Below are positions 20,627 through 53,418 of a DNA stretch of 64,000 nucleotides, in pieces (the first letter of the stretch is position 1; each line of letters begins with the position of its first letter). The stretch is from positions 1-64,000 of the forward strand of contig NZ_JAQQTG010000007.1 of the NCBI RefSeq assembly GCF_028561335.1. The letters are read 5' to 3'. This DNA comes from Aequorivita todarodis. GTDB lineage: Bacteria; Bacteroidota; Bacteroidia; Flavobacteriales; Flavobacteriaceae. Made by a program: the position numbers and the translations under genes. The notes under the pieces are model-generated. The model saw only the letters and a list, made by a program, of their open reading frames with translations. It was not told the DNA's origin and searched no databases.

Positions 20627-23185
20627 ATGAATGCCAATTTTCTGCAAACCCCGATAGATTACCTAAAAGGCGTTGGGCCCAACCGGGCCGATTTGCTGAA
20701 AAAGGAACTCGGCATCCATACCTTTCAGGATTTGCTGAATCTTTTTCCGAATAGATATTTGGACCGTACCCAGTATTACAAAATCGCGCAGTTGCAACAG
20801 ACCAATGCCGAGGTACAGATTATCGGAAAAATCACCCACATTAAAACCGTAGAACAAAAACGAGGGAAGCGATTAGTTGCAACTTTTATTGACGAAACGG
20901 GAACGATGGAATTGGTTTGGTTCCGTGGCCAAAAATGGATTCGTGAAAATTTAAAGCTGAATGTTCCGTACGTAATTTTCGGAAAGACGAATTATTTCAA
21001 CGGTAGTTTTTCCATGCCGCACCCTGAAATGGAATTGCTCGATGCGCACGAAAAAAGTATTCGTTCCGCAATGCAACCCGTGTATCCTTCCTCTGAAAAA
21101 TTAAGCAACAGTGGCATCACAAATAGGGTGATAAATGGACTGATGCAGCAGCTGTTTTTAGAGAGCAAAAATAACTTCGCCGAGACCCTCTCAAAACCAC
21201 TTTTGGAACAGCTGAAATTGGTCTCGAAAAAGGAGGCACTTTTCAACATACATTTTCCGAAAAGTCAGGGGCATTTGGCACGGGCACAATACCGATTAAA
21301 GTTTGAGGAATTGTTTTATATTCAGTTGCAATTAATCCGAAAAAACCTCATCCATAAATCGAAAATCAAGGGCCATATGTTTGATAAAATAGGCCATAAC
21401 TTCAACACCTTTTATTCGCAACATTTGCCCTTTGAATTGACCGAGGCACAGAAGCGCGTCATCAAGGAAATCCGCAACGATTTGGGAAGCAATGCGCAGA
21501 TGAACCGACTTTTGCAGGGCGATGTGGGTTCGGGGAAAACCATAGTAGCGTTCATGTCAATGTTAATAGCACTTGACAACGGTTTTCAGGCCTGTTTAAT
21601 GGCGCCGACTGAAATTTTGTCAGTTCAACATTACAATGGTTTAGCTGAAATGTGTAAAAGCCTGAACACCAGTATTGAATTATTGACCGGCTCAACCAAA
21701 ACTTCAAAAAGAAAAGAAATTCACGAAAAACTTGAAAATGGCGAGTTAGACATCTTAATTGGCACCCACGCCTTGCTCGAAGATAAGGTAAAATTTAAAA
21801 ATTTAGGGCTTGCAATTGTGGATGAGCAACACCGTTTTGGAGTGGAACAACGGAGCAAATTATGGCATAAGGGAGGCCCACCTCAATCCTCCCTGAGGGA
21901 GGAAGCAGCAAGAGTGCGTAAAAAATATATGACGGCTAGGCCATCTGCTTATAAATTACTAAAAGAGCTCCAGCAAAAAAACAAAAAACAACCCACCCAA
22001 GCCGAAGCAATTTTATGGGAATGTTTACGAACCAAAAAACTTGATTATAAATTTAGACGACAACATATTATTGATGAGTTTATTGTCGATTTTGTCTGTC
22101 TCGAAAAAAAGCTGATAATTGAAGTAGATGGGGGATATCACAACCATCCACAGCAAAAAGAAGCTGATGAGCTGAGAACGCAGATTTTAAAAGAACTGAA
22201 GTTTAAAGTACTACGGTTCCCAAATGAAGAAATAATAGGCAATATCGATGCCTCGCTAAAAACAATTGAAACAGCTTTAAAAAGCCTCCCCTCCGGGGAG
22301 GTTGGAGGGGCCGGGGCCATTCCCCCCCACATCCTCGTTATGACCGCCACCCCCATCCCCCGCACCCTCGCCATGAGTGTGTATGGCGACCTGGATATCA
22401 GTGTGATTGACGAGTTGCCGCCAGGCCGAAAAAACATCAAAACTGTCCACCGTTTTGACGCCAATAGACTAAAGGTTTTTCGCTTTATAAAGGACGAAAT
22501 TTCGAAGGGACGGCAGGTGTATTTTGTCTATCCATTGATACAGGAAAGTGAGGCGATGGATTACAAGGATTTGATGGATGGATACGAAAGCATCGTGCGC
22601 GAATTTCCTCCCGACGGTTCGGGACCGAAATATCAAGTTTCCATCGTTCACGGACAGATGAAACCAGCCGATAAGGATTATGAAATGAACCGTTTTATAA
22701 AAGGCGAAACCCAAATTATGGTCGCCACAACGGTTATAGAAGTTGGCGTAAATGTGCCAAATGCCAGTGTGATGATTATTGAAAGTGCGGAACGTTTTGG
22801 ACTATCACAATTACATCAATTGCGCGGCAGAGTTGGTCGCGGTGCCGAACAGAGTTACTGCATTTTAATGACCGGCCACAACCTTTCGGCAGATGCCAAA
22901 ACCCGCTTGGAAACTATGGTACGCACTAGCGACGGTTTTGAAATTGCCGAAGTGGATTTAAAACTTCGCGGCCCCGGCGATTTGATGGGCACCCAGCAAA
23001 GCGGCGTGCTGAACCTTCGCATTGCAGACCTCGTAAAAGATTCGGAAATATTGAAGATTGCCCGGAGCTATGCCTCACAGACCCTAAAAGCAGACCCCAA
23101 CCTTTCTTCCGAAGAAAATATTCCTATAAAAAACACATTCGAGCAGCTTGTAAAGTACCGAAATATCTGGAATTACATTTCTTAG
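20627..23185 (+). CDS. recG: ATP-dependent DNA helicase RecG with an in-frame DUF559 nuclease insertion
   Basis: 852 residues; without the insertion it would be 703, the usual RecG length. The wedge/OB region is followed by Walker A GDVGSGKT (298-305), DEQH (399-402), then the foreign segment (about 416-564), then TATP (573-576), the rest of the helicase and the conserved tail QLVKYRNIWNY. RecG reverses stalled forks and processes Holliday junctions. The normal sequence KLW-K..IPPHILVMTATPIPRT is split after KLWHK and resumes at IPPHIL. The reading frame is intact across both joints. Whether the helicase still works, or the extra domain alters it, cannot be told from sequence. Confidence 0.97.
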   Translation: MNANFLQTPIDYLKGVGPNRADLLKKELGIHTFQDLLNLFPNRYLDRTQYYKIAQLQQTNAEVQIIGKITHIKTVEQKRGKRLVATFIDETGTMELVWFRGQKWIRENLKLNVPYVIFGKTNYFNGSFSMPHPEMELLDAHEKSIRSAMQPVYPSSEKLSNSGITNRVINGLMQQLFLESKNNFAETLSKPLLEQLKLVSKKEALFNIHFPKSQGHLARAQYRLKFEELFYIQLQLIRKNLIHKSKIKGHMFDKIGHNFNTFYSQHLPFELTEAQKRVIKEIRNDLGSNAQMNRLLQGDVGSGKTIVAFMSMLIALDNGFQACLMAPTEILSVQHYNGLAEMCKSLNTSIELLTGSTKTSKRKEIHEKLENGELDILIGTHALLEDKVKFKNLGLAIVDEQHRFGVEQRSKLWHKGGPPQSSLREEAARVRKKYMTARPSAYKLLKELQQKNKKQPTQAEAILWECLRTKKLDYKFRRQHIIDEFIVDFVCLEKKLIIEVDGGYHNHPQQKEADELRTQILKELKFKVLRFPNEEIIGNIDASLKTIETALKSLPSGEVGGAGAIPPHILVMTATPIPRTLAMSVYGDLDISVIDELPPGRKNIKTVHRFDANRLKVFRFIKDEISKGRQVYFVYPLIQESEAMDYKDLMDGYESIVREFPPDGSGPKYQVSIVHGQMKPADKDYEMNRFIKGETQIMVATTVIEVGVNVPNASVMIIESAERFGLSQLHQLRGRVGRGAEQSYCILMTGHNLSADAKTRLETMVRTSDGFEIAEVDLKLRGPGDLMGTQQSGVLNLRIADLVKDSEILKIARSYASQTLKADPNLSSEENIPIKNTFEQLVKYRNIWNYIS
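21872..22318 (+). mobile_element. DUF559 nuclease cassette with palindromic ends, inside recG
   Basis: A 447-bp (149-codon) insertion. The core from the in-frame ATG at 21929 encodes a Vsr-like/DUF559 domain: TQAEAILWECLR, KFRRQHIIDEFIVDFVCL, KKLIIEVDGGYH, then DELRTQILKELKFKVLRF. Acidic residues in AEAILWE, VDF and IEVDG fit the nuclease fold. The ends (21875-21906 and 22284-22312) are inverted relative to each other, each with a GGCCC head and its own palindrome (TCCTCCCTGAGGGAGGA on the left, CTCCCCTCCGGGGAG on the right). There are no intein splice residues (no terminal His-Asn or Cys/Ser). Confidence 0.88.
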
Positions 23186-51451: not shown

Positions 51452-52195
51452 TTACCGCCGCCGCAACTTCTTGCTATTGACCTTTTTCTGAAAAGCCCTG
51501 CTATGCTTCAATATCAGTGTATGGGTTTCTTCAAAACTTTTCCCATAAAGCACGGCATATTCCTGCGCCATAATTTTCACCATTGTCCTTGAAAGCCACA
51601 ACCTGCGGAAGTTGTGCATGCGCTTTTCAAAGTCCATCGGTTCAAAACGCATACGGTTCAAGTCTATCAAATAGAATTCGTAGCTATCGTTACCATTGTC
51701 CACAATCAACGTATTTCCCGGCGAATGGTCCAAAAAGTTCACCCCGTTTTCGTGAAGTTTAAAAGTGAATCGGGTAAACTGTCTCAATATTTCGTTGCGC
51801 TTCTTAAACCTCGGGTTGTGTATCAATTCCCGGAAATCAAAATCGTAATCAATGTGTTCGCTTATGTAGAAACTCTCCCGCAATCCGCCCGAAAATGTTT
51901 CCAAATACGCCACGGGAAAAGGTGTTTTTATTCCAAAACCGATCAATTTTGAGGCGTATTCAAAAGAGCGCTTCGCCTTACTTTTCCGAAGAAATTGATA
52001 CACCAGGGCCTGAAAAGCATTCGGCGTCCTAAACTTTTTGATGTTGAAGGAAGTTCCCTCAAGCTGCACCATTTTTATCACATTGCGCTCGCCTTGGGTC
52101 ACATATTCCCCTCTTACGGAAAAATTGTGCAGCACCTCCCTCAGGGTTTCGGCCAAGTGGGAATATTTTGGATTGATAACAAAATTCTCGCGCAT
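51452..52195 (-). CDS. WaaP/Kdo-type lipopolysaccharide kinase
   Basis: 247 residues. It has a protein-kinase-like fold: an N-terminal lobe with IKKFRTPN as the likely Lys site, FLDHSPGNTL with the HxD-like catalytic part (DHSPGN) and LIDLNRMRF, the DLN form of the metal-binding motif. It transfers phosphate onto a sugar of the LPS core (Kdo or heptose) on the cytoplasmic face. It opens the glycan locus that follows. A REP-like pair lies between it and the GT9 gene. Confidence 0.88.
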   Translation of the reverse strand: MRENFVINPKYSHLAETLREVLHNFSVRGEYVTQGERNVIKMVQLEGTSFNIKKFRTPNAFQALVYQFLRKSKAKRSFEYASKLIGFGIKTPFPVAYLETFSGGLRESFYISEHIDYDFDFRELIHNPRFKKRNEILRQFTRFTFKLHENGVNFLDHSPGNTLIVDNGNDSYEFYLIDLNRMRFEPMDFEKRMHNFRRLWLSRTMVKIMAQEYAVLYGKSFEETHTLILKHSRAFQKKVNSKKLRRR

Positions 52196-52252
52196 TTATA
52201 AAAAAATACTTTTAAAAAAGGTATTTTGCGAAGGTAATCCATTAAAATTCTT

Positions 52253-52318
52253 GTCCCAACCCTAAAGGTAGGAATTTTAAAAACGGCAATATTTCCCCCT
52301 TTAGGGGGCAGGGGGTTA
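52253..52318. repeat. Head-out inverted REP-like pair
   Basis: A forward unit (52253-52276) and an inverted unit (52292-52318) with a 15-bp spacer, in the gap between the divergent LPS kinase and the GT9 gene. The inverted unit reads, on the minus strand, TAACCCCCTGCCCCCTAAAG and continues GGGGGAAA. The forward unit is decayed (AACCCTAAAGGTAGGAA). Confidence 0.8.
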
Positions 52319-52344
52319 TCCTAAGTTTTGCGAAAGCAAGTTTT

Positions 52345-53418
52345 ATGAAGAAAATACTCGTAATACAAAACAAAAGAATTGGCGATGTGCTCATCAGCTC
52401 GGTCATTGCCAATAATATAAAGAAGGTTTTTCCCAAAAGCGAAGTAACCTATTTTGTATATGAATACACCGCGGGTGTTCTGGAAAACAATCCAAACATC
52501 GACCGTATTATTTCGGTAAAGGAAAAGGAACTAAAGAGCTATGCCAAGCTTTTTCAGACCATTTCCAGAATAAAAAAAGAGGAGTACGACATTATTTTTG
52601 ATCCGTATTCCAAATTGCAAAGCAGGCTGATCTGTCTTTTTTCCGGTGCCGAATACCGAATTGGTCTAAAACGCGCCCATAAGGATTTGAAGCTTCCCTT
52701 CTACACCCACCCCATAAGCCATTTGAAACACCGCACCAAAAACTGCGGCAAGGCAATTGAGGATAGAATCAATATGATTGCCTCGGTTTTTGAGCTGAAA
52801 GAGCCCGAATACGCCCCGAAAATATTCTTGACGGAAGTAGAAAAACAATACAACAGAATCGATTCCCTGCAAAAACCCGTAATTATGCTGGGTATTTTGG
52901 GCAGTACGCCCCAAAAATCCATGCCCTATACCTATATGGTTGAAATTATAGACTACATCACTGAAAACCATCTTGGTACTGTTCTTTTCAATTATGCTCC
53001 CAATCAAAAAGAAGAAGCGCAGAAGGTTTATGAAATGTGCAAAAACAAAAACCGGATAAACCTCGACATATACGAAGACTCCATCCGTGGATTTATAAAA
53101 CTTATGAACAAATGCGACCTCTTGGTTTCAAACGAAGGGGGAAGCGTTCACATTACCAAAGCATTGGATAAACCAACATTTACAATTTATTCGCCATATG
53201 TAAATAAAGAACACTGGTGCAGTTTTGAGGATGGCGACCATCACGATTCCATACATTTATTGGAAGAAAAACCCGACCTTTTCAGCAGTTTCACTTTGGA
53301 AGAACGAAGAACCATTGAAGAAGACCCAAATTCGCTCTACAAAGAACTGACGCCAGAAATGATCCTCTCAAAACTAAAACCCTTTTTGGAGCATCACCTC
53401 GCAGGATTTTCTTCCTAA
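52345..53418 (+). CDS. Glycosyltransferase family 9 (heptosyltransferase-like)
   Basis: 357 residues. The opening MKKILVIQNKRIGDVLISS and the C-terminal nucleotide-sugar-binding DLLVSNEGGSVHITKALDKPTFTIYSP are typical of GT9 enzymes such as WaaC/WaaF. It adds heptose or a similar ADP-sugar to the LPS core. The last 4 bp overlap the convergent GT2 gene. Confidence 0.92.
   Translation: MKKILVIQNKRIGDVLISSVIANNIKKVFPKSEVTYFVYEYTAGVLENNPNIDRIISVKEKELKSYAKLFQTISRIKKEEYDIIFDPYSKLQSRLICLFSGAEYRIGLKRAHKDLKLPFYTHPISHLKHRTKNCGKAIEDRINMIASVFELKEPEYAPKIFLTEVEKQYNRIDSLQKPVIMLGILGSTPQKSMPYTYMVEIIDYITENHLGTVLFNYAPNQKEEAQKVYEMCKNKNRINLDIYEDSIRGFIKLMNKCDLLVSNEGGSVHITKALDKPTFTIYSPYVNKEHWCSFEDGDHHDSIHLLEEKPDLFSSFTLEERRTIEEDPNSLYKELTPEMILSKLKPFLEHHLAGFSS

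Follow-up and report, generated by a model that had tools for sequence, protein, structure and literature searches.

Positions 52253-52318 of the window, the whole stretch of 64,000 nucleotides of Aequorivita todarodis analysed here, hold two short palindromes with outward-pointing heads. The pair lies between two divergent genes, which encode a Kdo/WaaP-type kinase (51452-52195, minus strand) and a glycosyltransferase of family 9 (52345-53418, plus strand). The locus raises the question of how such a pair reached this site and which enzyme could have moved it. The initial annotation likened it to the ends of an insertion in recG and proposed that it could be the non-autonomous form of an element whose autonomous form carries DUF559.

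Layout of the pair and its insertion

The head-out pair was confirmed as a real feature. It consists of a CCC head (52255-52257), AA, the palindrome CCCTAAAGG(T) (52260-52269), a spacer, the palindrome CCCCCTTTAGGGGG (52295-52308), CA and a GGGGG head (52311-52315); the palindromes are inverted and the C/G-rich heads lie outermost. A tetranucleotide head of the GTAG type is absent from both units, and the terminal CGTC motif is absent at both ends of the pair. The left palindrome is slightly decayed (AGGT) in this genome (G000) and intact, as CCCTAAAGGGAGG, in the alleles of G001 and G012. The surroundings of the pair are organised as follows.

52224..52237, plus strand: left copy of the target-site duplication, TTTTGCGAAGGTAA; in the G012 allele GCGAAGGTAAT flanks the element as an exact 11-bp repeat
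52238..52325, no strand: inserted element (pair and surrounding arms), missing from most relatives and found in G000, G001 and G012
52242..52250, plus strand: left arm TTAAAATTC of a longer palindrome around the left unit (inverted repeat I4, 9 nt, 100%)
52255..52269, minus strand: left unit with an outward head, CCC-AA followed by palindrome CCCTAAAGG(T); G001/G012 have the intact form TTGCCCCAACCCTAAAGGGAG; the 23-bp match to a DUF559-flanking unit (locus L200) lies here
52272..52280, plus strand: right arm GAATTTTAA of the longer palindrome (inverted repeat I4)
52281..52294, plus strand: spacer separating the two units, varying among alleles
52295..52315, plus strand: right unit, palindrome CCCCCTTTAGGGGG, CA and head GGGGG, head outward (from sequence)
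52326..52339, plus strand: right, decayed copy of the target-site duplication, TTTTGCGAAAGCAA (from allele comparison)

A strict pair pattern, CCCTAAAGGN{18,45}CCCTTTAGGGG, matches six places in the 3.33-Mb genome, including the present one, and none when read backwards; four of the six sit in an array around a stand-alone DUF559 gene (L001). With a less strict unit pattern 137 matches were obtained, overlapping variants included, compared with 8 for its backwards control. The close pairs among the listed places of this genome are all head-out (six, with no head-in pair).

When 1.9 kb around the site was used as query against relatives, most same-genus genomes proved to have an empty site that reads without interruption as GGTATTTTGCGAAGGTAATCTATATG / GGTATTTTGCGAAGGTAATCTATATGAAG, and within the genus only G000, G001 and G012 carry the pair. 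The inserted stretch runs from about 52238 to 52325, exceeding the pair itself, with edges TTTTGCGAAGGTAA / TTTTGCGAAAGCAA. In the G012 allele an exact 11-bp repeat stands on either side of the element (0/2000 shuffles); in G000 the two copies have decayed. The pair is thus a mobile insertion into an intergenic site that occurred after the genus had diversified. Target duplication does not serve as a signature of such pairs in general: nine of ten other pairs inspected in this genome have none, and the tenth (L014) has a 9-bp repeat that could also be a tandem duplication. In view of the exact repeat in G012 and its absence from these nine pairs, staggered, duplication-forming insertion took place at this site but is not general.

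The units could also be host sites, acting as bidirectional terminators or RNA hairpins, their likeness to DUF559 flanks being due to convergence of GC-rich hairpins. Units do fold into hairpins, and gene ends are where many single copies are found. Yet the site is empty in most relatives, no terminator is required between divergent genes, and the element as a whole is predicted to fold no better than shuffled sequences. Convergence also sits poorly with the 23-bp identity to a DUF559 flank and with the low count of the backwards control, and we consider this explanation very improbable.

The intergenic point itself has received another insertion. A different palindromic sequence (TTTAAAATCTTTATCCCGTGCTT...) occupies exactly the same position in G023 (L033) and G014 (L034), which suggests that the site is an insertion hot spot.

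DUF559 genes and the units around them

The genome has five DUF559 matches: two stand-alone genes in repeat arrays (L001 and L004), one in-frame domain each in LeuS and RecG, and a Vsr-like gene that lacks units. The RecG insertion lies in the same window.

21881..21905, minus strand: left unit (CCTCAATCCTCCCTGAGGGAGGAAG) of RecG's in-frame DUF559 insertion, of another unit family (from sequence)
21929..22282, plus strand: DUF559 (EDxHD/Vsr-like) nuclease domain, in frame in RecG (from profile, fold and alignment)
22285..22312, plus strand: right unit of the RecG insertion (CCTCCCCTCCGGGGAGG-TTGGAGGGG) (from sequence)

The likeness to the recG insertion ends holds for the head-out layout but not for the sequences, since the RecG units (CCTCCCTCAGGGAGG / CCTCCCCTCCGGGGAGG with TTGGAGGGG) form a different family. 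A target duplication was looked for at the RecG insertion and none was found. Five genomes of the genus carry the insert and at least ten lack it. Its dS is 0.058 when G000 is compared with G005, against 0.44-0.76 for the surrounding RecG, and in the comparison with G015 the values are 0.33 and 0.78-1.06; in the comparisons with G013 and G006 the insert does not differ from its surroundings. Because the dS values for G005 and G015 lie far below those of flanking RecG, the insert appears to have moved between species on its own, after they had split. Its dN/dS of about 0.05-0.15 in the older comparisons suggests maintenance by purifying selection, which fits the expectation for a homing gene.

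The domain has a core of the form E...D...ExDGxxH...D in which E26, E65, H71 and D80 are invariant and D54 and D67 nearly so. Its predicted structure (pLDDT 84.5) has as relatives 3hrl and 3r3p (homing endonuclease I-Bth0305I, catalytic domain), followed by Vsr; the match to 3r3p has an E value of 1e-6 by profile and a TM score of about 0.6-0.75 by fold. I-Bth0305I belongs to the EDxHD family and dimerises on an exceptionally long target (review PMC3943268). The in-frame DUF559 copies of LeuS, RecG and MetH form one subfamily (32 rows, SH-aLRT 94); stand-alone and in-frame domains fall in different clades and have different unit types.

The association of DUF559 with such units was examined at 62 Bacteroidota loci taken from a survey of genomes, an outward hairpin plus G-rich head within 350 bp being required on both sides. 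Thirty of the 62 loci have both, whereas the identical test at distal control positions 1.0-1.8 kb further out gave 0/157. With a limit of 600 bp in the same genus, both-side units were found at 12 of the 32 strong DUF559 loci and at 0/15 Vsr-like matches of the same Pfam family. In other phyla 5/18 loci pass the both-side test. About half of the DUF559 loci lack units on both sides by the detector used. The initial annotation would have been contradicted had no other DUF559 gene been flanked by such units; many are.

Several further arrangements deserve mention. Four Chloroflexota DUF559 genes (L113, L124, L131, L133) have outward units of similar design, e.g. CCCCCTCTCC...GGAGAGGGGG-CCGGGGGGTG, so that the association extends beyond Bacteroidota. 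At an apparently identical genomic position in three species (L190, L191 and L192 in G001, G004 and G003, respectively) a DUF559 gene has complete double-hairpin pairs on both flanks (ACTCCCCGTC...CACCCCTC), a stable REPtron-like arrangement. In other Bacteroidota (L156, L157, L159, L162, L164, L174, L184) DUF559 is in frame in restriction-modification subunits, DNA methyltransferases and a helicase, with linkers that are encoded by units, e.g. PLPLGEDLGEGK and PSPTGRGAGGEG.

Bare and filled forms were found at one and the same site, the MetH linker between KKAVAYLLPYIE and ILMATVKGDVHDIG. The present genome has a bare in-frame pair there, SPQPPKGE-KAELV-PPLGARG (L250, G000:C11:64763-64818), and in G019, of the same genus, the corresponding units enclose a full DUF559 at the identical position (APLSPKGG ... 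PPLGGRG). Unit-flanked DUF559 also occupies the MetH site in G029, G072, G273, Chryseobacterium takakiae and Nonlabens antarcticus. The bare pair of the present genome may have arisen there by deletion or by an insertion of its own.

Unit sequence, copy number and the candidate enzyme

A sequence link between the pair and a nuclease gene is provided by the stand-alone DUF559 gene L200 of G012, which is flanked by TTGCCCCAACCCTAAAGGGAG and CTCCCTTTAGGGTTGGGGCAA: a 23-bp stretch of its units recurs exactly (23/23) in the G001 and G012 alleles of the target pair. An empty-site comparison for L200 was uninformative, since in many genomes about 500 bases of other sequence separate the ends of the two adjacent genes. 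The core type CCTTTAGG is common to the target pair and to L001, L188 and L200. When the presence of this core is placed on the DUF559 tree of 100 loci, four changes suffice, against a mean of 20.1 and a minimum of 16 after shuffling; the corresponding numbers for stand-alone DUF559 only are two and 18. The tree is built from 117 columns and many of its forks are weakly supported. Protein and unit distances are correlated at 85 non-redundant loci (Mantel r 0.29, p 0.0005), exceeding all 2000 permutations. In each of G000, G011, G012 and G017 one DUF559 clade has CCTTTAGG units, and units of another sequence stand at those remaining DUF559 genes for which units were detected; L231 in G020 is an outlier to this match of clade and unit. 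Kinship of species contributes to the co-variation of unit and nuclease, but does not account for the contrast within genomes. Judged by unit core and by co-variation with the DUF559 clade, the target pair groups with the stand-alone DUF559 genes of the CCTTTAGG family (the L001/L200 type) and apart from the unit family of the RecG insert. The proposal of a non-autonomous DUF559 element therefore survives in amended form: the insertion, the 23-bp match and the bare and filled MetH forms agree with it, but the element concerned is of the stand-alone family, not that in recG.

Among 24 same-genus genomes the correlation between unit count and number of DUF559 genes, which the initial annotation had named as a check, is moderate (rho 0.49, p 0.015), and the median is 21 units in genomes with DUF559 against 1 in those without. 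Exceptions are G022, with 39 units and no DUF559 of the relevant type, and G023, with three DUF559 genes and 0 strict units; G095, G110 and G123 also have many units without DUF559 of the relevant type. An advance forecast for the nine genomes tested last (G016 and G023 without DUF559, the others with it) was right in seven and wrong in G022 and G023. Across 247 Bacteroidota a generic unit pattern correlates weakly with DUF559, because unit sequence is lineage-specific and because chance matches occur in high-GC genomes.

These numbers leave room for the view that units spread by an unknown or general mechanism, such as replication slippage or single-strand annealing, and that DUF559 is a passenger that prefers to insert or persist in them. 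Genomes with many units and no DUF559, the weak phylum-wide correlation and the lack of a target duplication at most pairs are all compatible with it. Units without DUF559 could also be old ones that have survived the loss of their enzyme, but the passenger view predicts such genomes as well. It does not predict that unit sequence tracks the nuclease tree, that bare and filled forms occur in MetH, or that about half of the loci have outward units on both sides against none of the distal controls. We regard it as fairly unlikely.

A classical REPIN is the other candidate, with the pair moved by a RAYT (a Y1/HuH transposase, TnpA_REP) and DUF559 genes as passengers among REPs. Head-out inverted pairs, tandem arrays and intragenic copies are the layout described for RAYT-associated REPs and REPINs (PMC3733652, PMC6006769). 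The genome has three good Y1_Tnp genes and one weak match, and the repeats around one of them (L006, GCCCTTTCAGGGCTTGG) loosely resemble the unit. However, these units do not bracket any of the four Y1_Tnp loci, and the Y1 genes stand in other repeat families; the units have no GTAG head and their sequence follows the DUF559 phylogeny. An exact 11-bp target duplication, as seen in the G012 allele, is not expected from insertion of the IS200/IS605 type. This origin is quite unlikely in our view. The Y1-type transposase genes L006, L007 and L008 each lie amid a different repeat family of their own.

In view of the above, we favour the interpretation, with a probability of about 0.6, that the pair is a REPIN/MITE-like non-autonomous element of a repeat system whose dedicated enzyme is an EDxHD/Vsr-type DUF559 homing nuclease and not a RAYT. 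It builds on five observations: the insertion, the identity of the units, the co-variation, the occurrence of pairs with and without the nuclease gene at a single MetH site and the horizontal movement of the filled form. From these we infer that the pair was moved by DUF559, which would cleave the units. Counted against this interpretation are the moderate correlation in the genus and the weak one in the phylum, units without DUF559, DUF559 without strict units in G023, the DUF559 loci that lack units on both sides, the small number of duplications, the clade-specific units and the weak tree.

A possible mechanism would start with recognition of the hairpin-plus-head ends in trans by the nuclease, perhaps as a dimer across two inverted units. 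The nuclease could then make a staggered cut in target and/or donor DNA, after which host repair would copy the end-bounded segment into the break, at times leaving a duplication of 11-13 bp. A copy with DUF559 between the ends would be autonomous, and one without it would be a pair that is served in trans. For the choice of a new target and the preference for in-frame linkers this scheme offers no account beyond the survival of harmless insertions.

Relation to known repeat systems

The layout recalls the REPtrons formed by REPINs or BIMEs and their RAYTs (TnpA_REP, Y1_Tnp) (PMC6006769, PMC3733652, PMC8266576). Shared features are short palindromes with a head, inverted head-out pairs, tandem arrays around the cognate enzyme gene, intragenic copies and co-variation of unit and enzyme. 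Unlike in REPtrons, the partner is a DUF559 (EDxHD/Vsr-like) nuclease instead of a HuH transposase, no GTAG head is present, a target-site duplication accompanies the insertion studied here, and DUF559 itself occurs in frame in host genes. Since the partner enzyme and the heads differ, the pair and DUF559 are not classed as a RAYT system.

CGTC-tagged REPs and the Rickettsia palindromic elements (PMC3733652) resemble the present units in being palindromes that form head-to-head dimers, have in-frame intragenic copies in repair genes and show no association with a transposase; they differ in that the head here is G-rich instead of CGTC and that a nuclease partner gene is identified. The same 2013 survey came to the conclusion that CGTC REPs have no dedicated transposase (PMC3733652). 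A nuclease that co-varies with its flanking palindromes is a candidate driver for a large set of repeats across Bacteroidota. For short palindromic repeats without a RAYT we know of no driver so far.

EDxHD homing endonucleases (I-Bth0305I, 3r3p) and Vsr have the identical catalytic fold, and the RecG insertion behaves like a homing gene in two of the four dS comparisons. In contrast to these enzymes, DUF559 lies outside introns and inteins and is bracketed by repeat units, cognate short non-autonomous pairs exist, and the in-frame copies appear to remain in the host protein. A nuclease that co-varies with its units would also explain the DUF559 domains within LeuS, MetH and RecG as mobile in-frame insertions, and DUF559 with its unit constitutes a directly testable protein-DNA pair. 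In the open-access literature searched, covering DUF559 with REP, REPIN and Vsr, no link between DUF559 and palindromic repeats was found.

The target pair points to a so far unrecognised class of jumping element in bacteria, which also occurs in frame within essential proteins. Such a class, for which we put the chances somewhat short of even, would comprise an EDxHD-fold DUF559 that is bounded by cognate units, enters linkers of LeuS, MetH, RecG and other essential proteins by in-frame homing and spreads nuclease-free pairs in trans to coding and non-coding DNA.

With the MITEs of DNA transposons the pair has in common that it is a non-autonomous, end-matched derivative with a target duplication at one site; its ends are hairpin-plus-head units and not the simple terminal inverted repeats of a DDE transposase, and duplication is not general. 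A separate repeat family of about 150 bp in G000, G001 and G012 (L302, L303, L305-L307) has nested palindromes that hold a unit-like core, ACCCTAACCCTAAAGGGAAATC. At least two of its copies (L303 and L307) end in GTAGAATAAT/ATTATTCTAC inverted repeats, and the family looks like a longer MITE.
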